DNA of 64,000 nt from Polyangiaceae bacterium. GTDB taxonomy: Bacteria > Myxococcota_A > Polyangia > Polyangiales > Polyangiaceae. The position numbers and the translations under genes were made by a program. Where the stretch lies: NCBI GenBank assembly GCA_013214025.1, contig JABSRN010000011.1, forward strand, positions 62,001-126,000, read 5' to 3'. How positions within the stretch are numbered: the stretch's first letter is position 1; the number at the start of each line of letters is the position of its first letter. Below the pieces are notes generated by a model, which was given only the letters and a program-made list of their open reading frames with translations, was not told where the DNA came from and searched no databases. Of the stretch, positions 29,412 to 41,767 are shown one piece after another.

Positions 29412-29930
29412 ATGGCGGACGGTCTTAATCGCGTAATGTTACTCGGCAACCTTGGCGCGGATCCTGAATTGCGTGTCACTGGAGGTGGCCAATCGGTCCT
29501 AAAGATGAGGCTCGCAACTAGCGAGAGTTACCTCGATCGCAATCGGACTCGGCAAACGAAAACCGAGTGGCACAACGTTGTTGTGTGGGGCAAGCGAGCG
29601 GAGGCACTAGGTAAGTTCCTCGCGAAGGGCTCACGCCTGTTCATCGAGGGAGGTCTCCGGACTTCCAGCTATGACGACCGCGACGGCAACAAGCGATACC
29701 GTACGGAAATCGTCGCGAACAACATCATCCTCTCCGGTCGCGCCGGCGGCGGAGGCGGCGGAGGCGGCGACGGCGGCTACGACGATGGCGGTGGCTACGG
29801 CGGAGGCGGCGGAGTTAACCAAGGCGGCGGAGGCGGCGGAGTTAACCAAGGCGGCGGAGGCGGCGGAGGCGGCGGCTACGATGACGACTACGGCGGTAGC
29901 GTCCCGGACGACGACGACATTCCGTTTTAG
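29412..29930 (+). CDS. ssb: Single-stranded DNA-binding protein
   Basis: Binds and protects single-stranded DNA in replication and repair. The OB-fold occupies residues ~1-108 ([55 protein letters not shown]). A flexible linker of almost pure Gly with Asp, Tyr and Asn follows. It is built partly from a repeated DNA unit ending in GTTAACCAA (ending at 29822 and 29849), giving two copies of [10 protein letters not shown]. The acidic C-terminal tip DDDDIPF is the usual partner-docking tail. An RBS GGAGG precedes the ATG. Total length 172 residues, normal for the family. Confidence 0.96.
29799..29849 (+). repeat. In-frame repeat in the SSB glycine linker
   Basis: Two consecutive copies of a 24-27 bp unit, (GGCGGA)nGTTAACCAA, encode the repeated GGGGGVNQ segment. 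Linker length is likely to vary by slippage in multiples of three, without loss of frame. Confidence 0.7.
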
Positions 29931-29940
29931 GAGACGCGAG

Positions 29941-31692
29941 GTGCCGAAGCGCGGGCGACTCGCTAGCGCCGTGGTCGGGTGTATCGCCGGCATGGCTATC
30001 GGTGGTGGGTGCTCGGACGAGCCCTCACCGCCTCCTGCGCTGAAGCCGGTAGCTGTCGCGGCTCGGGCTGGCTTGTCCTTCGAATTTTCGATCGCGCGGC
30101 CTTCCCGGAGCTGGACTGCTTTTCGCAAACTCAGCGGGGCAAGCGGAGCGCTGCTTCCCAGCACTCCTGCTATCGCGCTGGCCACGTTCGGAGGCTTGCC
30201 GCTGGAGATGGTGCGGACCTTGGTTCCGGAAGCGCCCATTCGGGGCGTTGGTGGCTCCGTCGGGGATCAGCAACAGTTGCTCGTGGCCCTCCCGGTGGTG
30301 AGCGGCGCCGAGCTTGTTGCGCGGCTCACCACCGGAAAAAACGTTCGCTACACTGAGACCGTGGAGCCGAAATCGGGCCTCATCCAGTTGAGATCCCTGG
30401 ACAGTCCCCTGGTGGTAGGAGTCCTCGACGATTCTCTGCTGTTGAGTCCTTCCGCGGCGGCGATAGCGTACTTTGGCGAGTACCTAGTACGAGGCGTTCG
30501 CTCGAAGCACACAAGCGACGCGGATATTCGCGTAGTCGCGCCGGAGTCGGCGTTGAATGAGGTGGTGGTGCCGCTGCTACGGCAGCTCTGGATTTCGAAA
30601 AAAACGGGCCTTTTACTGGCGGACCGGCTGGCTCGTAGCCAGGCGGGTCGTGCACCTGACTTCGCGGAGCCCGCGCAGCTGGTTGCGGTGATCGGTGCGG
30701 TGGTCGAGAGCGGGCTGCGGACCCTCTCCGCATCCAGCTCGTTAGCACTGGAGCTGTCCGTAGATGCGCTGGGCGCGGAAATCGCGCTCAGTCTGCAGCC
30801 GAAACCGGGCAGTGCTGTTCGTGAGCTCCGAAAAAGCATGGCGCTGGGACCCATGAGGGAGCTTTTGCAGCTACCGCAAGAGGCGTCTGTTGCGCTGATG
30901 CTTCGAGCTGAGCCGGAAGGGCGCGCAGCACTCGGGACTGAGTTCGCCGCCAAGCTGACCGCACTATTGGGGGACAGGATCGGCGCCGTGCCGCGAAACC
31001 GAATCGAGTTGGCTGTCGCAGGGGTGATGCTTGCGGTCTCCGATGTCTCGTTGCTAGGCGCAGTTGAGCTGCCGGACCGGCGGCGGGGGCTGTTCTTCCA
31101 AACCCAGGTGCCAAAGTCCGTGGGATTTACCGAGGCCGTCTCGAAAGTCGTCTCGCTTTTAGAGATCGGAGCTCTTCGAGCTCCGATCGAGAGTCACTGG
31201 GGGCCTTTCCAGCTGCGGAGCGTTGACCCTGGGGCGGAGAGGCTCGGCGGCGTGGATCTTGTCCGAAAGAGAACCGCCAAGTTTCAGCCTGTGCCGGTTC
31301 AGATCCGTTTCGGAGTCCCGAAGCCGGGGACGGCGGGCCTGGTCGTTCTGTCGGAACAATCTGATTCGGTCGCTCGGCTCCTTGGAGCTCCAGCATTGGC
31401 GGGGGGCGCTGATCTGGGTTCCGACCCGCTCTTTGCGGCGGCGGCAGCGTCGCTGGGCAATTCCGTAAATACGGCGCTGATCGTTCGGATGACGGGGCCA
31501 GGTGGTGACAGCGAGCTGACGCGGCTGTTGTTGAGTTGGGGCGCCGCCGGGGAAAATCTCTCGCTCCGACTATTTGTCTCAGAATCAGCACTCCTTGGTT
31601 TGGCCCGGCAGTTGTTTGCGCCCGGCGGTCCCAGCACCGCAGCGCCCCCTCCGGCTTCTGCCGGGAGCACGGCGCCAGCCCCCCCCCCCTAA
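29941..31692 (+). CDS. Predicted lipoprotein of unknown function
   Basis: A 583-residue protein starting at GTG 29941: (V)PKRGRLASAVVGCIAGMAIGGGC gives a signal and the lipobox GGGC. The mature part alternates hydrophobic strands and short helices (PAIALATFGGLPLEMVRTLV; QLLVALPVVSGAELVARL; SPLVVGVLDDSLLLSPSAA), a pattern of large periplasmic repeat-like folds, but I cannot name a family. The tail APPPASAGSTAPAPPP is Pro/Ala-rich and ends in a run of 11 C residues (31679-31689) directly before TAA. The frame is also open back into ssb to 29671, where it only encodes an Ala/Glu/Thr low-complexity shadow; the signal peptide fixes the start. The gene lies 10 bases after ssb. Confidence 0.75.
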   Translation: MPKRGRLASAVVGCIAGMAIGGGCSDEPSPPPALKPVAVAARAGLSFEFSIARPSRSWTAFRKLSGASGALLPSTPAIALATFGGLPLEMVRTLVPEAPIRGVGGSVGDQQQLLVALPVVSGAELVARLTTGKNVRYTETVEPKSGLIQLRSLDSPLVVGVLDDSLLLSPSAAAIAYFGEYLVRGVRSKHTSDADIRVVAPESALNEVVVPLLRQLWISKKTGLLLADRLARSQAGRAPDFAEPAQLVAVIGAVVESGLRTLSASSSLALELSVDALGAEIALSLQPKPGSAVRELRKSMALGPMRELLQLPQEASVALMLRAEPEGRAALGTEFAAKLTALLGDRIGAVPRNRIELAVAGVMLAVSDVSLLGAVELPDRRRGLFFQTQVPKSVGFTEAVSKVVSLLEIGALRAPIESHWGPFQLRSVDPGAERLGGVDLVRKRTAKFQPVPVQIRFGVPKPGTAGLVVLSEQSDSVARLLGAPALAGGADLGSDPLFAAAAASLGNSVNTALIVRMTGPGGDSELTRLLLSWGAAGENLSLRLFVSESALLGLARQLFAPGGPSTAAPPPASAGSTAPAPPP

Positions 31693-31745: not shown

Positions 31746-32852
31746 ATGTCGCAGAGAGAACGCGTGCTGGTTACCGGCGTTCCGGATTTTCGTGCGCGCT
31801 TCTTCGTGGAATACCTGCTCGCGAACGAGCCGGAAGCGCAGATTTTTTGTCTCGTGGAACGCGATCGATCGGAGGCGGCCGAACAATTTGTATTGGCGCT
31901 TTCGCAATCGGATAAACGTCGGCTCGTTCTGCTTTACGGAAACTGTCGGGCGATCGATTTCGGCCTGAGCGGTAGCGAGTACCACCAGCTTGGCTCCCGG
32001 GTGACGCGCATTCATCACATGTCCCAGCTGACGGACCCGCGTGCGGATCGCCACCGAGCTGAATCTCACAACTTGGCTGCCGCTGAAGAAGTGATCGAGT
32101 TCGCTCGACAGTGTACGCCGCTCAAGCTGCTACTGGCCCACTCCACCGCCTGGGTGAGCGGCAACCGCACCGGGGTGGTGTTGGAGTCGGAGTTGGATGC
32201 CGGTCAAAGTTTTCGACTGCCAGTCCGGGAGTCGTTGGCGGTTGCCGAGCAGCTCTATCGCTGCGCGATGAAGGACTTGCCCATTGCGGTGCTCAGGGAG
32301 AGCCAAGTGTTGGGCGACTCTAGAACGGGGGAATCGGATCGGGACGACAGCACTTTCCGCTGGATTCGGCGCTTGGTGCGGGCGCCCGAGTTGCCCGCGT
32401 GGCTTCCGGGGCATGAGCGTTGCCCACTGAACGTGGTGCCGCTGGACTACCTGGTGGCGGCGGCTCACCGCATCGGTCATTGGGAAGGCGCCGCAGGCAA
32501 AACATTTCATCTTACCGATCCCGATCCCCCGAGTGTTCGACGGGCGGTGGAAATGATCGCTGAGGCAAGCGGGAAGCGCCCCCCGCCGGCGCGACTGTTC
32601 AAGAACCCGCTCGCGAAAGCCTTGTTGCGCGCCCCGGGATTGGGTCGGCTCACTCAAGATCCGAGGGCCCTGTTGGAACTGTTGACGGTGGACGTTCGCT
32701 ACGACGCGCAACATACGCGCCTGGCCTTAGAGGGAACCCAAGTGCAGTGCCCCCCGTTGGAGTCCTACGTTGGGGCACTGGTGCGGCGGGCCCAGGTGGA
32801 AAGTGCGACCGCCGCCGCGAGCCCCGATTCGGAGGTGTACGATCCGTTGTGA
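31746..32852 (+). CDS. Degenerate SDR (thioester-reductase-like) protein
   Basis: A 368-residue member of the extended short-chain dehydrogenase group related to male-sterility/thioester reductases. Conserved landmarks are FGLSGSEYHQL, STAWVSGNRTGVVLESELDAG, LPIAVLRESQVLGDSRTGE and PLNVVPLDYLV. However, the nucleotide loop TGxTGFxG reads TGVPDFRAR, and the catalytic Y-x-x-x-K region (usually FRNPYEETK) reads FRLPVRESL, so both Tyr and Lys are missing. It is probably a pseudoenzyme or binding protein rather than an NAD(P)H reductase. The ATG at 31746 starts exactly at the beta-1 strand; longer frames run back into the lipoprotein. The SGNH gene follows closely, probably in one operon. Confidence 0.82.
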   Translation: MSQRERVLVTGVPDFRARFFVEYLLANEPEAQIFCLVERDRSEAAEQFVLALSQSDKRRLVLLYGNCRAIDFGLSGSEYHQLGSRVTRIHHMSQLTDPRADRHRAESHNLAAAEEVIEFARQCTPLKLLLAHSTAWVSGNRTGVVLESELDAGQSFRLPVRESLAVAEQLYRCAMKDLPIAVLRESQVLGDSRTGESDRDDSTFRWIRRLVRAPELPAWLPGHERCPLNVVPLDYLVAAAHRIGHWEGAAGKTFHLTDPDPPSVRRAVEMIAEASGKRPPPARLFKNPLAKALLRAPGLGRLTQDPRALLELLTVDVRYDAQHTRLALEGTQVQCPPLESYVGALVRRAQVESATAAASPDSEVYDPL

Positions 32853-32877
32853 TCCTCGGAGCCGGGGGGCGCGACTG

Positions 32878-34188
32878 GTGGTCGTGTCCACGCTGGCCTT
32901 CACTACCTGCGCCCCGGTGGTGTCGCAGCGGGCTGGCGCGCGCGCCGACGAACACGGAATCCCGGCGGCTCGGCAAGTCTCCCCACAAGTTGAGCCGAGC
33001 TCGAAGCCACTGCACTGCCAGGTACCCCGGGCGACCCAGAATGCTGACCCAGCGCCGGCGCGTCTCGGATCGGATGAACTGAAGTTGCCGCGTTTCTTCG
33101 CGGCCCTCAGAGAACTCAAGGCGAATCGCCGCACCGATCACGTGCGGGTCATGTGGTTGGGCGACTCTCATACCGCGGCAGATTTTTGGCCCCACCAGTT
33201 GCGAATCGCCCTGCAGGGTCGGTTCGGCGACGGAGGCCCGGGCTTTCTCTACACCGGGCTGAAGCTTTATCGCCACGGTTCAGCCGCTATCGCCCGGGAG
33301 GGGAAGTGGCGCAGCCAACCTCGAGCACCGGCGACGATCATTCCGAGTTTCGACCGTCGTTTCGGTTTGGGGGGGATTCGAATGGTCCCTCAAAGCGGCG
33401 GAGCTCTTGTTTCGCTTTCCCTCAAGGAGCCCGGAGAAGGTCAGCTTCGATGGGAGCTGCTCTATCGTTTGCCTCATGCTCGGAGCTCACTGCAAGTATC
33501 TTTGGGGAGTCAGACGGAGACGCTGTCGCGGGCAGCGGCCGATTCCGAACAAGGCACCTTGATGCAGAGCGTGCGTCTCGAGGGGGCAGCGGCCGATTCC
33601 TTCCGTGTGAGTGATTTCCGGAATCAACCGGAAGTGTTTGGGGCTATCGCCGAAAGAACTGCGCCCGGTGTTGTGCTGGATACTCTAGGTATTAACGGAG
33701 CACGGATCAAAACTACGATGGTCTGGAATGAAGGGGCTTGGGTTCGTGAAGTGCGTCGGCGGAGTCCGGACCTGCTAATTGTGGCGTTCGGCGCCAACGA
33801 GGTCGGCGATCGCGTGGCACCCTGGCGATACCGTGCGGATTTTAAGGAATTGGTCGGCCGCGTTCGTCGGGGCTCGCCCGGTTGCGAATGTTTGATCGTG
33901 GGACCGATCGAGAGGGCTGCCCGAAACTGGAAGCCGCACCCCCGAATGAAGCCCATCGAAGACATGCAGCGGGAGACGGCCCGGGAACTGGGTTGTGAGT
34001 TTTTCAGTTCCGTCGATGCGATGGGGGGGCCCGGGTCACTCAAGACGTGGAGTGAACTCTCGCCTCAGTGGGCGAGGAGAGACCGGGTGCACCTGACCGT
34101 GAGAGGCTACCGGGAATTGGGACGGCGCTTGGCCGACACTGTGTTGACATCGTTCGATGCAGAGCGGAGCCGGCGGGCAGCGCATTGA
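32878..34188 (+). CDS. SGNH/GDSL-type hydrolase, exported
   Basis: A ~437-residue SGNH-fold hydrolase. Block I is VMWLGDSHTAADFW (nucleophile Ser), the block III position is IVAFGANEVGD, and block V is DRVHLTVRGYRELG with the Asp-x-x-His pair, so the catalytic set is complete. The start is uncertain: GTG at 32878 leaves a short hydrophobic segment ending LAFTTC, which could be a weak lipobox, while ATG at 32770 overlaps the SDR gene. A jelly-roll-like insert (residues ~85-220) lies between blocks I and III. The mature protein is probably extracytoplasmic, acting on an ester such as a polysaccharide or peptidoglycan O-acetyl group; the substrate is inferred, not shown. A paralogue lies convergently downstream. 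Confidence 0.82.
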   Translation: MVVSTLAFTTCAPVVSQRAGARADEHGIPAARQVSPQVEPSSKPLHCQVPRATQNADPAPARLGSDELKLPRFFAALRELKANRRTDHVRVMWLGDSHTAADFWPHQLRIALQGRFGDGGPGFLYTGLKLYRHGSAAIAREGKWRSQPRAPATIIPSFDRRFGLGGIRMVPQSGGALVSLSLKEPGEGQLRWELLYRLPHARSSLQVSLGSQTETLSRAAADSEQGTLMQSVRLEGAAADSFRVSDFRNQPEVFGAIAERTAPGVVLDTLGINGARIKTTMVWNEGAWVREVRRRSPDLLIVAFGANEVGDRVAPWRYRADFKELVGRVRRGSPGCECLIVGPIERAARNWKPHPRMKPIEDMQRETARELGCEFFSSVDAMGGPGSLKTWSELSPQWARRDRVHLTVRGYRELGRRLADTVLTSFDAERSRRAAH

Positions 34189-34224
34189 ACCGTGCTAGTG
34201 GTTTGGCGGCGGTTGACGTGGCTG

Positions 34225-35727
34225 CTACGGAGTTCCGGGAGCGCGTTTCGGCGCTGCTGCTTTTCGGTAGCTTTCGTAGCCACTGATCAGCGCTTGGTAC
34301 ACCCAGTTGCCGATGATCTCGGCGCCCACTGAGGTCGGATGGGTGAGATCGGCTTGACCGAGTCCACGACGCACCCACTTGGCCATGGAGCCCTTGCCGC
34401 CCATAGCGTCGAAGGTATTCCAGAAGGCGCAACCCACCTCGTGGGCAGTTTTTTCCTGCTCGTCAACGATCAGGGGAATCACCGGCACGGTGATCATCCA
34501 GTCTTTTTCTTTGCGTGCGCGATCCATTGCTCCGAGCACGAGACAGTCGGCTCCGGGCACTGCGGCTTTGGCTTGGAGCAAAACCTCTTTCATGGTCCGG
34601 TGGTAGTCTTCCATCGAATAGGCGAAGCCGTCGCCGCTCTCGTTGGCGCCGAACTGGTAGACGATCAGCTTTGGATCTCGCCAAGCGAGCTGTTGGGCCC
34701 AGTGGGTGTCGTCTTGTTTGTCCAAGAAGCGGACGCGAGCCCCTTGGATACCAATGGCGTCTAGGACGACCCCTGCTTGGTCACGCTCCATCGCGACGCC
34801 GAATACCCGAGTCATGCCCCCTGCCGTGAGGATTTCGAGCTGATGCTCACCGTCGGACACGACAACATCGTGGAATCCGGAGGTCTTGGCATCGGCACGG
34901 GTCGAGATGGTTTCGACGAGCTTGCCGTCGACGCTCAGCTTGAGGTCGCCGCCGTGGGGTTGAGACAAATAGGCGATTCGGAATCTGCTGACGTGCCTGC
35001 CGTAGCTGCCCTTTTCTGCGGTGCCAAATCGTGCTCGCACTCCGGGAGCGGCTTTGAAGCTGACGCCACCGAGACCGTACAGACCGTCCTTGAGGTAGGG
35101 GCCAACGACACGACTCACCACCCAACCGCGGCTGGCGAAACGAAACACGTCGTTGTGAAAGTACGCGGGCCAGGCATTGGCGACGAGCATGAAGCCGTGC
35201 CCGGCATCTCCGAACTGAGTCTGGAGTTTTCGGCGTAGCGTAGCGGTTACGTAGTCACTCGCGACGAGTGAATCTCCGTGATAGACGATGCGGGTGATCT
35301 GGCCATCGCGTTTGATGGCGGTTTTGGCTAGCGACGCGTAAAATTGCGAGAGCGACTCCGGATCGATGAGCGGGACGGGTGGCTGCTCGGCATCGATTGC
35401 CGGTATTTTGAAGTCGTCCTGCTTGGCCGCGATGGGGCCCTTACGTTCGGTGACGCGGATCTGTTCGGGCAGAGCGAGCTCCTCGCGGAAGTGGCTCTCG
35501 GTCGCCAGTGTAGATTCGCCGAGCTTTTGATCGTCGGCGACCAGCTGGGCAACATCGGCCGCGGCTTCCCCCTCGGGAGCTGTGAAAATACGAGCGCGCT
35601 CGAGACCCGGCACCCGCTGAACAGCGACGCCTAAGGCAAGCAGCAGCGCTGTCGCGATCACGGGGCGGCTAGCGAACACCTGGCGTGGGTGAACGACAAG
35701 CTCACCGGGCGCCTGGGTTGAAAGCAT
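34225..35727 (-). CDS. Second SGNH/GDSL-type hydrolase, membrane-anchored
   Basis: A 500-residue paralogue of the previous hydrolase on the opposite strand; the two stops are 36 bases apart. An N-terminal span (ASRPVIATALLLALGVAVQ) anchors it, with the catalytic domain outside. Block I is VYHGDSLVASDYV, block III is YQFGANESGDG, and block V is ADLTHPTSVGAEIIG. Both proteins share the phrases RFGDGGPGF/QFGDAGHGF after block I and DAMGGKGSMAKW/DAMGGPGSLKTW near the end, so they derive from a duplication. The family acts on acyl esters; the true substrate is unknown. The FHA gene lies 18 bases upstream, suggesting one operon. Confidence 0.88.
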   Translation of the reverse strand: MLSTQAPGELVVHPRQVFASRPVIATALLLALGVAVQRVPGLERARIFTAPEGEAAADVAQLVADDQKLGESTLATESHFREELALPEQIRVTERKGPIAAKQDDFKIPAIDAEQPPVPLIDPESLSQFYASLAKTAIKRDGQITRIVYHGDSLVASDYVTATLRRKLQTQFGDAGHGFMLVANAWPAYFHNDVFRFASRGWVVSRVVGPYLKDGLYGLGGVSFKAAPGVRARFGTAEKGSYGRHVSRFRIAYLSQPHGGDLKLSVDGKLVETISTRADAKTSGFHDVVVSDGEHQLEILTAGGMTRVFGVAMERDQAGVVLDAIGIQGARVRFLDKQDDTHWAQQLAWRDPKLIVYQFGANESGDGFAYSMEDYHRTMKEVLLQAKAAVPGADCLVLGAMDRARKEKDWMITVPVIPLIVDEQEKTAHEVGCAFWNTFDAMGGKGSMAKWVRRGLGQADLTHPTSVGAEIIGNWVYQALISGYESYRKAAAPKRAPGTP

Positions 35728-35745: not shown

Positions 35746-37089
35746 TCAGAAGGGCGCGTCGCGGACCAGGCCGCGGGTGGGCTTTTTAGCCTTCTGCTTA
35801 GGTCGGGGAGTGGGGGGGCGCCAGACGGTGGGCGCGGATCGGGCCACAGGATTCCGTGCAACGGGCTCGGTTGCGATGGGCAGGGAGCTTGGGCTGACGA
35901 CCGAAGCGCTCTCCACCGGCTTGGAGGGTTTCGGATCGACTTCGGGCAACTCGTCCGGGTTGAGTGCCTCGTCCTGTTTATCCAGCTCGGCGAGCATCCT
36001 GACTGCCCGCTTGCGGCGAGTGGAATCGACGCCTTCGCTCTTGGCGATCTTGTCGAAGATATCGCGGCGCTCGGTATCGTCCGCCGCGCGGCTGGCGGCC
36101 TCGAACAGGCTATCCGCCCAGGCGGACTGGATCTCGCGGTACTCAGCGGTGTCTCGTGCATTGCTTTCGTCGGCGATGCGGCTCACGGTTTCGTGAGCTC
36201 CGGCAACGTCGCCCTGGGCGAGCTGAGCTGCAGCTTCTGTTAGCAGGCGGGTTCCTTCGGGGATCGCTGCTGCCGGCGCATCGCCGTTCGCCTGGGAATC
36301 GTCGCTATTCGACCAAAGCATAACGGCACCCAAGGCCAACACGACCGACGCTCCGAAGGCCAGTCTCGGCACCAGTTTGGCAAACTCAGTTTGAGAGCTT
36401 CCACCGGTAGATAGTGTTCGGGGATCCAGGCGAAAGACCTCGCCTTTGCGAACGAACTTGAACTGAACGTCGCCGAGCTCGATGACGTCGCCAGATTCGA
36501 GAATGCTGCGTTCGAAAGGCGTGCCGTTGATCCGAACGCCGTTGGAGCTGTTTCGGTCAGTGATCTCGTAGCGATGGTCGCCCAGACTAGTCAAATCCGC
36601 GTGCACGCGACTGACGGAACTGTCGTTGACGGCAATCTGGCATTCTTCGCCGCGACCGATCGACGCCGCGGTCTCGTTGAGCGGGAATATCGCCCCCACC
36701 GAGGGCCCCATGATCATCACCAAGCGGTCATCCCGCAGGGTCATGCTGGCGGGACCGCCGGGCACGGTGACGGTGCTGCGTTTCTCGCCTAGGGGAGTGG
36801 TGTCGTCGTCGACGTGAAGTCGGTAATCACCGAGTTCGATGAAATCACCGCATTCGATGCCCATGACATCGGCGAGGGGTTCACCGTTGAGGTAGGAGCC
36901 GTTGTAGCTCTGGAGATCTTCGATGTGCCACCCGTTGGCGTCCTTGAAAATCCGCAGGTGCTGGCGACTGACGTTCCGCTCAGTGAGCCGTATCGTGCTC
37001 TCTTTGGCTCGGCCGATGGTGTAGGAGTCGCGCACCAGATTGACTTCGGTCTGGTTCCCCTGATCGTCGTCAATGCACAATTTCCACAT
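35746..37089 (-). CDS. Double FHA-domain membrane protein
   Basis: A 447-residue protein with two forkhead-associated domains, which bind phosphothreonine peptides. FHA1 at about residues 24-95 (YTIGRAKESTIRL; VSRQHLRIF; SYNGSYLNG) and FHA2 at about 140-215 (ASIGRGEECQIAV; VSRVHADL; NSSNGVRIN) both keep the GR, S-R-x-H and NG residues. A membrane span (RLAFGASVVLALGAVMLW) is near residue 250, followed by a helical segment and a Pro/Lys-rich tail. It probably reads the output of a Ser/Thr kinase such as the one at 24.6 kb, though that link is only inferred. It is adjacent to the SGNH and serine-hydrolase genes. Confidence 0.9.
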   Translation of the reverse strand: MWKLCIDDDQGNQTEVNLVRDSYTIGRAKESTIRLTERNVSRQHLRIFKDANGWHIEDLQSYNGSYLNGEPLADVMGIECGDFIELGDYRLHVDDDTTPLGEKRSTVTVPGGPASMTLRDDRLVMIMGPSVGAIFPLNETAASIGRGEECQIAVNDSSVSRVHADLTSLGDHRYEITDRNSSNGVRINGTPFERSILESGDVIELGDVQFKFVRKGEVFRLDPRTLSTGGSSQTEFAKLVPRLAFGASVVLALGAVMLWSNSDDSQANGDAPAAAIPEGTRLLTEAAAQLAQGDVAGAHETVSRIADESNARDTAEYREIQSAWADSLFEAASRAADDTERRDIFDKIAKSEGVDSTRRKRAVRMLAELDKQDEALNPDELPEVDPKPSKPVESASVVSPSSLPIATEPVARNPVARSAPTVWRPPTPRPKQKAKKPTRGLVRDAPF

Positions 37090-37118: not shown

Positions 37119-38255
37119 CTAGGACCATAGGCTGCTTGTGGTGAGGGAGAAAGCCTCATCGTGAATCGCCGGGCGGGCCGTTCGGATCCCTAGCTTTTCC
37201 CGGCTGGGGCAGACCCGATTCGTCAGTAAAGCGACCACGACTTGTGCATCGGGATCGCACCAGAGGCTGGTGCCCGTGAAGCCCAGATGCCCAAAGGAGT
37301 TCTCTCCGAAGAGTCGGCCGGCCGACGAGTCGGAGTTCGCCTTGCTGTCGAAGCCCATGCGCAGAGTAGCCCCATCCCCTGGGTCTCGCAGCATGCGAGC
37401 TAGTGTCCTGGATTGGAGCAGACGAGCCGAGCGCGAATGAACGCAGTCGACCAACTCTCTTCCCAACTTCGCTACGGCGCCGGCTGTGCCGAACAGCCCT
37501 GCGTGACCGGACTGCTCTTGGGCGCTTAGCAACCAGGCATTTTCGTCGTGAACGATCCCAACGAGCTCGCCTCCGCGCCAAGCAATGGTTTCGGTGGGAG
37601 CCACGCGTTGCTCAAATCGAGGATCCCGCGAGCGCCAGGCTTCCGCCGTGTCGATGTCTAGCTGTAGGGGCCGCAGCAAATCTTGGCGCTGCCAATCGCT
37701 CAGGCTGCATCTTCCTCGCTGGCCGAGAACCTGCCCGAGCAGGATGTAGCCAAGATCGCTGTACTCAGCCTGGGTTCGGAAGCTGCCGTCCGCCAGAGTT
37801 TGACGGGCCTGGAAGATCCGCAGCATTGTGTCCTCACGGCTGACGGCCTCCCCTCGTTCCAACGCATCGTAGAGCGCGATATGGGCTCGGAGTCCCGATC
37901 GGTGGCCAGCGAGGGCTTCGATGGTGGCGGACGCGACCGCCGTGCCTTGCCCGATTCCGCACTCCTGCAACTGGGTGTTCCAGGCCAGTTGGTCTCGTTC
38001 GACCATGCGCCCGATGGCGATCGCCGTGAGAGATTTCGTGAGACTCGCCAAGTCGTAGGGGGTGGCGGTGCTCACTCGAGCCTGAGAGCTAGGGGACCGC
38101 ACTCCAACCGCCGCGGAGGCCCAGCGCCAGCCACTTCGGTAAACGGCTATGTGAAGCACGGCACCTGGAGCCACCTCCGGCCCCAGAATATGCCGCTCCA
38201 AACATGCCGTTAGTTCGGGGCAGAGCGCGGCTGTGTGTCCGGTGTCGTGGAGCAT
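37119..38255 (-). CDS. Beta-lactamase-fold serine hydrolase
   Basis: A 378-residue penicillin-binding/beta-lactamase-class-C-like protein. The nucleophile motif S-x-x-K is in YDLASLTKSLTAIA, the second motif position is YSDLGYILLG (Tyr as general base), and HLGFTGTSLW fits the third. No signal peptide is obvious, so the location is uncertain. Such proteins include esterases and peptidoglycan peptidases; true beta-lactamase activity is unlikely to be inferable. The ATG at 38255 is preferred to a TTG one codon earlier. It is the first gene of the minus-strand run with the FHA and SGNH genes, 29 bases upstream of FHA. Confidence 0.86.
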   Translation of the reverse strand: MLHDTGHTAALCPELTACLERHILGPEVAPGAVLHIAVYRSGWRWASAAVGVRSPSSQARVSTATPYDLASLTKSLTAIAIGRMVERDQLAWNTQLQECGIGQGTAVASATIEALAGHRSGLRAHIALYDALERGEAVSREDTMLRIFQARQTLADGSFRTQAEYSDLGYILLGQVLGQRGRCSLSDWQRQDLLRPLQLDIDTAEAWRSRDPRFEQRVAPTETIAWRGGELVGIVHDENAWLLSAQEQSGHAGLFGTAGAVAKLGRELVDCVHSRSARLLQSRTLARMLRDPGDGATLRMGFDSKANSDSSAGRLFGENSFGHLGFTGTSLWCDPDAQVVVALLTNRVCPSREKLGIRTARPAIHDEAFSLTTSSLWS

Positions 38256-38443
38256 CAACGTTCATTGGGCGCCCCCAACCGGGGGAATTGGCCCGCACGG
38301 ATAGTAATGCTGATGGGGGCCGCTAGGGCAGCCCATTGCGAGCAATTCCCGGGCTCCAGTCCGGATCCCCCGGTTTCGGCGGAGATCCCCCGGCGATGGC
38401 CCATGATGGAGACAAGACTTTCGCCTCCTTATGATGCGCGTTT

Positions 38444-38473
38444 TTGACCACACAGTCGCGGAAACGCTATGAT
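38444..38473 (+). promoter_or_regulatory. Sigma-70-like promoter of pilC
   Basis: TTGACC (38444-38449), an 18-base spacer and TATGAT (38468-38473) form the best consensus promoter in the window. It lies 38 bases ahead of the pilC ATG, and a GGGAGA element follows before the start codon. Confidence 0.6.
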
Positions 38474-38511
38474 TGTACGGACGGGGCGCAAGCTCGGGAG
38501 AATCAACACCG

Positions 38512-39726
38512 ATGCCTGAATTTACCTGGGAGGCGCGAGCCAGAAGCGGCGAGCTTCGTAAGGGCGTGATGGAGGCTGACGATGCCGCCGCCGTTAACCA
38601 AAAACTCCAAGCCCAAAACCTCAGCCCCGTAAAGGTCAAGAAGAAGGGCGGCGGGCTGAACCTTCAGTTCGGCAGCGGTGTTGAGGTCGCCGACTTGGTG
38701 ACCTTCACACGCCTATTCGCCACCATGATCGACGCCGGCTTGCCGCTGGTGCAGTGCCTCGAGATCCTCGCCGGCCAGCAGAAGAATCCAATCTTCGGAA
38801 AGATTCTCAAGGACGTAAAGAGCGCCGTGGAGCAAGGAGCGACCTTCAGCGACTCGTTGCGGCGTCACCCCAAAGTCTTCGACGAACTGTTCGTCAACCT
38901 GGTCCAAGCCGGCGAGACCGGCGGCATCCTGGACAACATCATGAACCGCCTCTCGATCTATCTCGAAAAGCGGCAAAAACTGATTCGTCAGGTGCGGGCC
39001 GCGCTCGGATATCCGGTCATCATTTGTTGCGTGGCTGGTCTCGTGATGGCCGTCATGCTCATTTTCGTGATTCCCGCCTTCGAGTCCATGTTCAGCGAGT
39101 TCGGTGGCGGACCCGATGCCTTGCCCTGGATCACCCGGATGATGGTCAAGCTGTCGAACAATTTCATCGGCTACATGCCTCTCATTGTCTTGGGCGGCGG
39201 CGGAGGCTTCATGGCGTTGAGCTACTACAACAGCCTGCGCCACGGCCGGCGTAACCTTCATCGCATGATGTTGGCCGCGCCCGTCATTGGCAACGTCCTC
39301 CGGAAGATCGCTGTTTCTCGCTTCACCCGTACGCTGGGGACCCTGCTTCAGTCTGGCGTTCCGATTCTCGATGCTCTTGAAATCTGCGCGAAGACCTCGG
39401 GCAATGTCGTCATCGAAGAAGGCATTATGTTGGTCCGGACGCGGATCAGCGAAGGCAAGAACATGGCGGAGCCGTTGATGGAGGCCAAAGTGTTTCCGGA
39501 CATGGTGGTGCAGATGATCGCCGTCGGCGAGCAGACCGGCGCGCTGGATGCCATGCTCAACAAGATTGCCGACTTCTATGAAGAAGAAGTCGACGTGGCT
39601 GTGGGCGGCATGACCGCCATGATCGAACCGATCATGATGGTGGGCATCGGCGGCATGGTGGGGACCGTGCTGGTCGCGATGTATCTGCCCATCTTCAGCA
39701 TGGCCGGCAACATCAAGGCTGACTAA
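38512..39726 (+). CDS. pilC: Type IV pilus inner-membrane platform protein
   Basis: PilC/GspF family platform protein of 404 residues, which holds the extension and retraction ATPases at the inner membrane during pilus assembly. Two T2SSF domains are visible: FTRLFATMIDAGLPLVQCLE (first) and RFTRTLGTLLQSGVPILDAL (second), each followed by the family Gly/Glu motifs and membrane spans (YPVIICCVAGLVMAVMLIFV; PIMMVGIGGMVGTVLVAMY). The start MPEFTWEARARSG matches the family N-terminus. pilB and pilT, the usual upstream neighbours, are not here. A PilS-like kinase follows 15 bases later. A GspF of a type II secretion system is possible, but the context favours pili. Confidence 0.93.
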   Translation: MPEFTWEARARSGELRKGVMEADDAAAVNQKLQAQNLSPVKVKKKGGGLNLQFGSGVEVADLVTFTRLFATMIDAGLPLVQCLEILAGQQKNPIFGKILKDVKSAVEQGATFSDSLRRHPKVFDELFVNLVQAGETGGILDNIMNRLSIYLEKRQKLIRQVRAALGYPVIICCVAGLVMAVMLIFVIPAFESMFSEFGGGPDALPWITRMMVKLSNNFIGYMPLIVLGGGGGFMALSYYNSLRHGRRNLHRMMLAAPVIGNVLRKIAVSRFTRTLGTLLQSGVPILDALEICAKTSGNVVIEEGIMLVRTRISEGKNMAEPLMEAKVFPDMVVQMIAVGEQTGALDAMLNKIADFYEEEVDVAVGGMTAMIEPIMMVGIGGMVGTVLVAMYLPIFSMAGNIKAD

Positions 39727-39741
39727 GCCGGCTGTTTCATC

Positions 39742-41037
39742 GTGTCGCTTCGGCTTGGTGTTCCGGTTCAGAGTACTGAGGGGCTTCACGCTCGTTTGGT
39801 ATGGGTGGTGGCTGGCAGGCTGTCGCTCTTCACTCTATTCCTGGGGCTGATCGGCTTTCTGCGCCTGGATTCTGAGACAGGCGTTGGGGGAGCTGAGACC
39901 GTACAGACTTCTCTTGCCACCCTGGCCGTGGCCTTCGCGATCAGCGGCGTGTACGCCGTAGTATTGCGGACCGGGAAATGGGCCGCGGAACTGGTCTACG
40001 TTCAGGTCGTTGTGGACCAGGTGGTTTGGACCATCGCCGTCTATTTGACCGGTGGCGTGGCGAGCGGTGCGGCTTCCCTGTACGGGCTGAGTTGTCTGGT
40101 GGGCGCCATTCTCGGTGGCTTCGGGGCGGCGGTGCTGGCGGCGGCGGCGGCGTCCGTTTGTTACTCCGCTCTGGTCATCGCCTTGCATACAGGCCGGCTG
40201 GCGCCGCCTTCGGACCAGCCCCTCGCGGTCTACGTCTCTACCACTGAGGACCTCGTCTATCACATCGTGGTCAATGTGCTCAGTGTGGTCATCGTGACGT
40301 TGCTGGCCGCGTATCTTTCGGAGCGATTGCGTGCGGAAAGTGGACGCCTTGTGGTGGCGGAGCACCGAGCGACCCAGGCCGAACATATGGCGTCCTTGGG
40401 TCGGCTCGCTGCTGGCTTGGCCCATGAAATTCGCAATCCCCTAGGCAGCATCTCGGGTTCCATCCAGCTGTTGCGATCCAGCCCGGCCCTAGGGGAAGAG
40501 GACCGCCAGTTGTGCGAGATCATCGAGCGCGAGTCAGCTCGGCTGAGCCATCTGGCGACCGACATGATGGACTTGTCGTCGCCCCGAGTTCCCCAGAAGA
40601 CCGCAGTGGATGCGGCAGCCATCGCCAGGGAAGTGGTCGCTCTGGCTTCGCAATCTGGTCGCGGCGTTTCTGACGTGAAGATCGAGTTTGTCGGGGACGA
40701 CGAGGCGATGGTCAACGCGGATGGATCCCAGCTTCATCAGTTGATCTGGAACCTGGTGAGGAACGCGGTACAGGCGAGCACTGCGGGAGACGCCGTGAAG
40801 GTTCGGGTGAGCCGGACGGACGGCGAGGTTCAGCTGAACGTCGAAGATCAAGGGGTGGGCTTGGCACCGGAGGCCATCGAGCGGATTTTTGACGCCTACT
40901 ACACGACCCGGACTCAAGGCACCGGCGTCGGTTTGGCTGTGGTAAAGCGCATCGCTGACGACCACGGATTCGTGATTGAGGTTCAGAGTGAGCAGGGTCG
41001 AGGAGCGATATTCCTCGTGCATCTCGTCACCGCGTAG
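39742..41037 (+). CDS. Membrane sensor histidine kinase, PilS-like
   Basis: A 431-residue sensor kinase. Five or six hydrophobic segments fill residues ~18-195, as in PilS. A coiled linker leads to the H-box SLGRLAAGLAHEIRNPLGSI with His228, then N-box LIWNLVRNAVQAS and G-boxes (VEDQGVGLAP; GTGVGLAVVKRI). In myxobacteria PilS pairs with the response regulator PilR and controls pilin transcription. Here no response regulator follows, so it is an orphan in this window. The start is GTG, 15 bases after pilC, so it is probably cotranscribed. The pilS assignment is likely from context but not certain. Confidence 0.88.
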   Translation: MSLRLGVPVQSTEGLHARLVWVVAGRLSLFTLFLGLIGFLRLDSETGVGGAETVQTSLATLAVAFAISGVYAVVLRTGKWAAELVYVQVVVDQVVWTIAVYLTGGVASGAASLYGLSCLVGAILGGFGAAVLAAAAASVCYSALVIALHTGRLAPPSDQPLAVYVSTTEDLVYHIVVNVLSVVIVTLLAAYLSERLRAESGRLVVAEHRATQAEHMASLGRLAAGLAHEIRNPLGSISGSIQLLRSSPALGEEDRQLCEIIERESARLSHLATDMMDLSSPRVPQKTAVDAAAIAREVVALASQSGRGVSDVKIEFVGDDEAMVNADGSQLHQLIWNLVRNAVQASTAGDAVKVRVSRTDGEVQLNVEDQGVGLAPEAIERIFDAYYTTRTQGTGVGLAVVKRIADDHGFVIEVQSEQGRGAIFLVHLVTA

Positions 41038-41179
41038 CCCGAAAACCCCACCGAGATCCCCTTCGCGGCCCGTTCTAACGATTCCGCTGCAGCTGTACCG
41101 GGAGTCGTGCTCTGGCGAGGGAAGCTATCGCGCGCTAGGGAAGTACTACTTCACGGACATCGCGTCCCCCGGAGCCCTC

Positions 41180-41767
41180 ATGATCAAATCCAGAATCGTC
41201 CTCGTTGCCCTCGCCGCCGTTGTGTTCCTGATGTCGACGGCTGCGCATGCGGATGCCGCTCCGGGTGGTGCGGAGGCCTTCATCCGGGATCGCCAGGCGT
41301 CGTTGAATCGTCTGATGGACGCCGGCAAGGACGCTGAGATCCAGACCGTCTTCGACTCCCTGCTCGACTACGAGCATCTGGCGCAATACTCCCTCGGAAA
41401 ACACGCAGCGGACCGTAGCGACGCGGAGCGCGCCGAGTTCGGCGATGTACTCAAACAGTTGGTCCAACGCGCCTACCGTCGAAATCTGAAGAAGACCCGA
41501 AACTACAAGGTTACCTACGACAAGACGGTTCCGATAAAAGACGGAGTGGTCGTGAGCACGGTGGCTCGACACGGTACGGATGCTCGCGCGGAGCCGGTTC
41601 ACATCGAATACAAGATGCACAAGGTTGATGCTAAGTGGAGGATCTTTGATATCGTCACCGAGGAATCCAGCATGGCGCGCAACTACCGCCGGCAGTTTTC
41701 TCGGATCATCAAGAAAAAGGGCTTCGACGACTTGATGAAGAGGCTTCGTAAGAAGCTAAACAAGTAG
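41180..41767 (+). CDS. mlaC: MlaC-like phospholipid-binding periplasmic protein
   Basis: A 195-residue exported protein of the MlaC/Ttg2D family, the soluble shuttle that carries phospholipids between the outer-membrane MlaA complex and the inner-membrane MlaFEDB transporter. A signal peptide (MIKSRIVLVALAAVVFLMST, cleaved after AHA) precedes the family body: LLDYEHLAQYSLGKH, FGDVLKQLVQRAYRRNL, and KWRIFDIVTEESSMARNYR, the last being the hallmark segment. The ATG at 41180 is fixed by the signal peptide; a longer frame starts inside the kinase gene. No mlaA, D, E or F is in the window, so it is detached from its usual operon. Confidence 0.88.
   Translation: MIKSRIVLVALAAVVFLMSTAAHADAAPGGAEAFIRDRQASLNRLMDAGKDAEIQTVFDSLLDYEHLAQYSLGKHAADRSDAERAEFGDVLKQLVQRAYRRNLKKTRNYKVTYDKTVPIKDGVVVSTVARHGTDARAEPVHIEYKMHKVDAKWRIFDIVTEESSMARNYRRQFSRIIKKKGFDDLMKRLRKKLNK

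Follow-up and report, generated by a model that had tools for sequence, protein, structure and literature searches.

The PatA/PatB/Ape1 system of Neisseria and Campylobacter combines an MBOAT protein carrying a C-terminal acyl-Tyr hexapeptide with two SGNH proteins. For PatA, the acyl-Tyr shuttle motif at the C-terminus has been demonstrated, and a hallmark of PatB is the replacement of the block II Gly by Ser or Asn (PMC12148441). The roles of the active-site residues of Ape1 were taken from PMC6174289. We compared this system with a locus of a Polyangiaceae bacterium, which lies in a window of 64,000 nucleotides (the whole stretch of DNA analyzed; GenBank assembly GCA_013214025.1, contig JABSRN010000011.1, positions 62,001 to 126,000). 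As in the described system, the genome encodes an MBOAT with a C-terminal acyl-Tyr hexapeptide and two SGNH proteins, one of which, SGNH-B, shares the predicted Ape1 fold and most of the Ape1 signature residues. In contrast to it, both SGNH proteins are Ape1-type, no convincing PatB was detected, the two genes stand tail to tail, and in the lineage of the window the pair is located apart from the MBOAT gene, beside genes for an FHA protein and a pseudo-SDR (Table 1). Our preferred reading, to which we assign a probability of roughly 0.58, is that an anciently duplicated Ape1-type pair and a separately encoded MBOAT would together run an acyl cycle on a periplasmic polymer. The acyl group is most likely acetyl, and peptidoglycan is slightly favored as the polymer.

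Table 1 Features of the locus, with positions counted from the first nucleotide of the window.
Feature	Position	Strand	Remarks
Lipoprotein-like gene	29671..31692	+	Fast-evolving ORF; same strand as SDR, upstream
SDR, degenerate extended, thioester-reductase-like	31746..32852	+	ATG 31746, stop 32852
SGNH-B, Ape1-fold hydrolase	32770..34188	+	Motifs GDSH, INGA, GANE, DxVH
Gap separating the convergent SGNH-B and SGNH-A stop codons	34189..34224	.	36 bp
SGNH-A, Ape1-fold paralogue with membrane anchor	34225..35727	-	Ser153/Asp460/His463 and Asn362
Double-FHA protein	35746..37089	-	With a hydrophobic segment and a tail at the C-terminus; precedes SGNH-A by 18 bp
Beta-lactamase-fold serine hydrolase (BLA)	37119..38258	-	SxxK (SLTK); precedes FHA gene by 29 bp and diverges from pilC

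Since the gaps between the genes for BLA, the FHA protein and SGNH-A are short (29 and 18 bp), these three probably form a single minus-strand operon. We infer from the spacing that the lipoprotein-like gene, the SDR gene and the SGNH-B gene constitute an opposing operon. The start of the lipoprotein-like ORF overlaps ssb, and the true start is probably near 29980, ahead of the Cys in the stretch ...IGGGCSDEP. A Pfam search with this gene, which the first-pass annotation had not noted, yielded no match; homologues are frequently found near the SDR gene in relatives. The TTG start of SGNH-B at 32770 overlaps the SDR gene, and translation more likely starts at a GTG near 32878, which is followed by a hydrophobic stretch and a Cys; the protein is possibly a lipoprotein. 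SGNH-A carries an N-terminal membrane helix (residues ~21-38). The first-pass annotation had described a paralogous, convergent SGNH pair with one membrane-anchored member, the presence of Ser, GANE and Asp-His in both proteins, and double-FHA and beta-lactamase-fold neighbors, and all of these features were recovered, the last of the motifs as Asp-x-x-His. On the other side of the BLA gene, pilC, pilS, and a pilR-like gene (window positions 38473-41767) adjoin it in divergent orientation. The position of pilC next to the BLA and FHA genes is conserved even in loci without SGNH genes.

SGNH-A and SGNH-B share 28% identity over 424 aa (E 6e-39) and are, on the basis of this alignment, paralogues. 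Their AlphaFold2 models (mean pLDDT 88.1 and 82.9, respectively) match Neisseria Ape1 (4k3u) with Z 42.9 and an rmsd of 2.2 over 347 of 350 residues for SGNH-A and with Z 40.9 and an rmsd of 2.5 over 340 of 350 residues for SGNH-B. Campylobacter Ape1 (8gld, 8gkd) is matched by both with Z 37-38. As in Ape1, the predicted SGNH domain accommodates a beta-sandwich between its blocks I and II, and the match extends over this insertion as well. After Ape1, the next structure matches drop to Z 16-19 and mostly comprise ~170-210 residues, which correspond to the catalytic domain. Profile matches to 4k3u were obtained for SGNH-A (E 3.5e-36) and for SGNH-B (E 5e-53).

Comparison of the active-site residues separates the two families. 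Bar a gap and single exceptions, both families retain the catalytic triad of Ape1 (Ser80, Asp366, His369) together with its oxyanion residues Gly236 and Asn268, and the two proteins of the window have all five. The residue following the catalytic Ser is Leu154 in SGNH-A and His134 in SGNH-B of the window. His81, next to the nucleophile, occurs in 49/49 SGNH-B sequences and in 0/49 SGNH-A sequences. Asn235 is kept in 40/49 SGNH-B sequences and is Gln in 24/26 sequences of the SGNH-A clade A1 introduced below. Directly ahead of the catalytic His, 48/49 SGNH-B sequences have Val or Ile, and most SGNH-A sequences have Thr, Ala or Arg. At the positions of Ape1 His81, Asn235, Thr267, and Val368, SGNH-A of the window has Leu, Gln, Ala, and Thr. 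SGNH-B of the window keeps His81, Asn235, and Val368 and differs from Ape1 by Ala at Thr267, although Thr is present there in 25/27 of its close relatives. Campylobacter Ape1 likewise has GDSH, INGA, and DVH. Taken with the models, these residues make it quite probable that SGNH-B is an Ape1-type esterase, and SGNH-A reads as an Ape1-fold paralogue with an altered active-site rim.

A PatB identity was ruled out for both proteins by the lack of a PF04311 match: the PF04311 (DUF459/PatB) profile returned no row for SGNH-A or SGNH-B with E-values up to 1. Weak matches to this profile were obtained for some SGNH-B orthologues, and no convincing PatB was detected when the genome of the bacterium, an incomplete assembly, was searched for PF04311. 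The block II Gly is kept in both SGNH-A and SGNH-B. Moreover, the catalytic His of PatB is preceded by a hydrophobic residue, unlike that of most SGNH-A sequences. No PatB structure is among the best 50 structure matches listed for SGNH-A; the PatB structure 8tlb appears with Z 16.1 among the matches listed for SGNH-B.

Because SGNH-A retains the block II Gly and mostly has Thr, Ala or Arg before the catalytic His, it shows none of the known hallmarks of a transferase and could instead be an esterase that acts on other substrates. Both SGNH proteins might accordingly be esterases that differ in substrate or location (SGNH-A at the inner membrane, SGNH-B as a possible lipoprotein), with another SGNH protein acting as the transferase of the MBOAT. 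The modeled full-length Ape1 fold of both proteins is in line with this, as are the complete triad of SGNH-A and the absence of PatB hallmarks from it; the genome has additional, weakly SGNH-like genes, and the MBOAT could be served by further SGNH proteins of the incomplete assembly. However, SGNH-A is the gene found most regularly beside MBOAT genes, in Polyangia and in some Acidobacteriota, it departs from Ape1 at His81 in all 49 sequences, and no convincing PatB was detected in the genome. We regard this explanation as possible but doubtful.

The most telling partner, the MBOAT, had been missed by the first-pass annotation because it is encoded on another contig. Among the three MBOATs of the genome, that of contig 58 most resembles the SGNH-linked MBOATs (~52% identity). 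This protein matches PF03062 (E 1.2e-31) and has the C-terminus FVYFQF; its gene is unlinked to SGNH genes in this genome but linked to them in relatives. MBOAT homologues were found in 60/60 family genomes, and those of the FHA-type genomes nearest to the window are 59-68% identical. In relatives, the C-termini read F(V/I)Y(F/G)QF or differ from it slightly, and they resemble the acyl-Tyr shuttle motif of PatA. An MBOAT gene lies near SGNH-A in 46/80 named loci, and in most Polyangia outside the lineage of the window the neighbor of SGNH-A is an MBOAT (PF03062). Two Acidobacteriota loci (L292, L302) show the order SGNH-B-MBOAT-SGNH-A, all in one direction, and SGNH-A, SGNH-B, and MBOAT are co-directional in two deltaproteobacterial loci (L288, L289). 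We give even odds to SGNH-A being the partner of the MBOAT. In a literature search, we found no report on MBOAT-SGNH in Myxococcus and none on O-acetylated myxobacterial peptidoglycan.

Several further observations concern the MBOAT loci. In many FHA-type genomes, the unlinked MBOAT gene is adjoined by a lipoprotein family with an 'ERYFPL' motif and no Pfam match (L105:10865-11698 on contig 58 of the bacterium), which is possibly an added component. With ~590 aa, MBOATs from those FHA-type genomes that are nearest to the window (L105:8914-10683) are longer than the linked ones (~490 aa), the extra part being N-terminal. In addition, the genomes G163, G158, and G198 contain a second MBOAT-A><B locus (L203, L204, and L205, respectively). 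In the tree, the proteins of this locus group with those of a different family within the class, which suggests horizontal acquisition.

In the acyl cycle that we favor, the contig 58 MBOAT would, by analogy with the PatA mechanism, transfer acetyl from acetyl-CoA to the Tyr within the peptide FVYFQF at its C-terminus. The membrane-anchored SGNH-A would take over the acetyl group and place it onto the polymer, and SGNH-B, as its match to Ape1 suggests, would remove it again. Such a cycle would constitute a testable myxobacterial envelope O-acetylation system without PatB, in which an Ape1 fold may have become a transferase; the associated residue switch, the loss of the His at Ser+1, is therefore directly testable.

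Myxobacteria make abundant exopolysaccharides, and the substrate of the pair might be an exported polysaccharide of spore coat, slime or capsule instead of peptidoglycan. MBOAT-SGNH pairs acetylate alginate and cellulose as well (PMC12148441). Yet among the neighbor families identified, which represent a minority of all neighbors, no polysaccharide-making gene recurs beside SGNH-A or SGNH-B, and the proteins matched over their full length, sandwich domain included, are peptidoglycan O-acetylesterases, which makes a polysaccharide substrate unlikely.

Genes of partner proteins do not usually keep a tail-to-tail order. Adjacent SGNH-A and SGNH-B genes are convergent in 29 of 30 loci other than the window, the remaining pair being tandem, and in 10 of the 30 the stops overlap or are separated by less than 10 bp. 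An independent set of 80 named loci gave a similar picture, with the SGNH neighbor convergent in 41 and on the same strand in 7. We found no transcription terminator within the 36-bp gap of the window, the number of terminator-like sites across the region does not exceed the chance expectation, and the junction shows no conspicuous folding (z -1.4). Mutual exclusion of neighboring genes through overlapping transcription has been described as a principle (excludon; PMC7154746). The SGNH pair resembles an excludon in that its genes converge without an obvious terminator between them and in their plausibly opposing activities. Excludons are defined by overlapping, mutually repressing transcripts; the loci compared here show gene overlaps or short gaps, and a role of this kind is conjectural for the pair. 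A conceivable mutual repression of the transcripts of the nearly touching genes may keep transferase and esterase apart. The conserved order of two possibly opposing enzymes offers a clean case in which to ask what gene order does.

In order to follow how the neighbors of the pair change across relatives, we combined trees with gene neighborhoods; the named Polyangiaceae genomes in this comparison were Sorangium, Polyangium, and Minicystis. SGNH-A is set apart with strong support (49 rows, SH-aLRT 100; 41 rows, 99/95 in another tree), and relations among the SGNH-B subgroups are weakly resolved. Polyangiaceae SGNH-A falls into two clades, one MBOAT-linked and one FHA-linked (A1; 26 rows, SH-aLRT 99), and the SDR-linked SGNH-B sequences form a clade B1 (27 rows, SH-aLRT 100). 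A1 is co-distributed with B1, and MBOAT-linked SGNH-A with other SGNH-B. The FHA gene is located upstream of SGNH-A in 25/80 named loci (26 when L252, with overlapping matches, is counted), and FHA and MBOAT genes are both beside SGNH-A in 0/80. Sorangium cellulosum and Minicystis rosea are among the species with the FHA-A linkage. The conservation of the neighborhood was thereby tested and found: the full order SDR-B><A-FHA-BLA is present in nine relatives and in at least five more of the named-loci set. G163 and G193 show the order B><A-FHA-BLA without a recognizable SDR, and in about a dozen other genera SGNH-A and SGNH-B are apart, yet FHA is still found with A and SDR with B. Overall, the convergence of A and B as well as the linkages FHA-A and SDR-B are found repeatedly across many genera and are more than chance. 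The number of independent neighbor changes is small, since the clades share history. By tblastn, the BLA gene is also present in G051 and G156. In G051, SGNH-A is split into two matches (L065:8251-9788), which suggests a frameshift or an assembly error; on account of this split reading frame, SGNH-A dN/dS was left out for the pair L065/L066.

The double-FHA protein comprises two FHA domains (PF00498, E 3.6e-33) with intact GR, SRxH, and N-G motifs, which are invariant in four orthologues. Together with the linkage to SGNH-A, these motifs suggest a kinase readout, and phosphorylation by a Ser/Thr kinase could influence the co-directional SGNH-A. The first-pass annotation had read the set as an envelope-ester-modifying module with a kinase-readout protein. 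Put more strictly, the five genes would form a dedicated module in which the FHA protein receives kinase signals and thereby controls both SGNH proteins and the pseudo-SDR. This view draws support from the intact FHA motifs, from the presence of FHA beside SGNH-A in 25-26 of the 80 named loci and never together with MBOAT, and from the persistence of the FHA-A and SDR-B links in about a dozen genera where A and B are apart. On the other hand, this separated state may represent one event inherited by a clade, the SDR gene is unlinked in many genomes, and PilC/BLA/FHA genes occur without SGNH genes in MBOAT-type relatives. The latter finding indicates that the PilC/BLA/FHA unit is probably older and that SGNH-A joined it later. 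Of the earlier proposal, the envelope-ester modification is upheld by the Ape1 folds and the MBOAT linkage, and the single ancient five-gene module is not. We consider such a module unlikely and a control of the system by the FHA protein similarly improbable. With regard to the acyl cycle as a whole, the FHA and SDR links could also be neutral synteny within one family.

The SDR matches PF07993 (NAD_binding_4; E 5.6e-27) over its N-terminal 240 residues, as well as PRK07201 and thioester-reductase-like models. Its likeness to extended SDRs of this type ends at the active site. TGVPDFRAR stands where the cofactor loop TGxxGxxG is expected and PVRESLAVAE in place of the YxxxK stretch, so that Tyr and Lys are gone; in an alignment to MxaA (4u7w), the second and third loop Gly, the catalytic Tyr, and the Lys are all missing. 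The degeneracy noted in the first-pass annotation thus holds for the window, and the same losses are common to all 42 aligned sequences (the window and 41 relatives), which share another motif instead, with the consensus TG[FY]PSFxAR and VVEETxARAE. Two close pairs of relatives gave dN/dS values of 0.17 and 0.32. The common motif and these ratios led us to reject a decaying pseudogene, and on sequence grounds the SDR is a conserved pseudoenzyme, apparently under constraint. SDR matches were obtained in 52/60 family genomes (E 1e-6), although a few are weak and concern the domains of ordinary reductases. The SDR gene directly precedes SGNH-B on the same strand in about 23 of the 52 genomes, and about half of the SDR-carrying genomes show no SGNH linkage. 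Our likeliest guess for its role is a non-catalytic scaffold or ligand sensor; being co-directional with SGNH-B, it could, as a conjecture, be a non-catalytic accessory. A pseudoenzyme kept in more than 30 genera, often beside one SGNH gene, provides a clean case for studying the role of dead enzymes.

In its most complete form, the proposal for the Polyangiaceae would be an envelope O-acylation system of two Ape1-type enzymes, one of them now a transferase and with no PatB, that was cut from its MBOAT and placed under an FHA kinase reader and a dead reductase, and whose opposing activities are encoded tail to tail by two genes that repress each other; we consider this full combination a long shot. 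Within one genus, a conserved 544-aa protein without Pfam match is encoded between the SDR gene and the lipoprotein-like gene (L065:12174-13808, L066:12457-14088).
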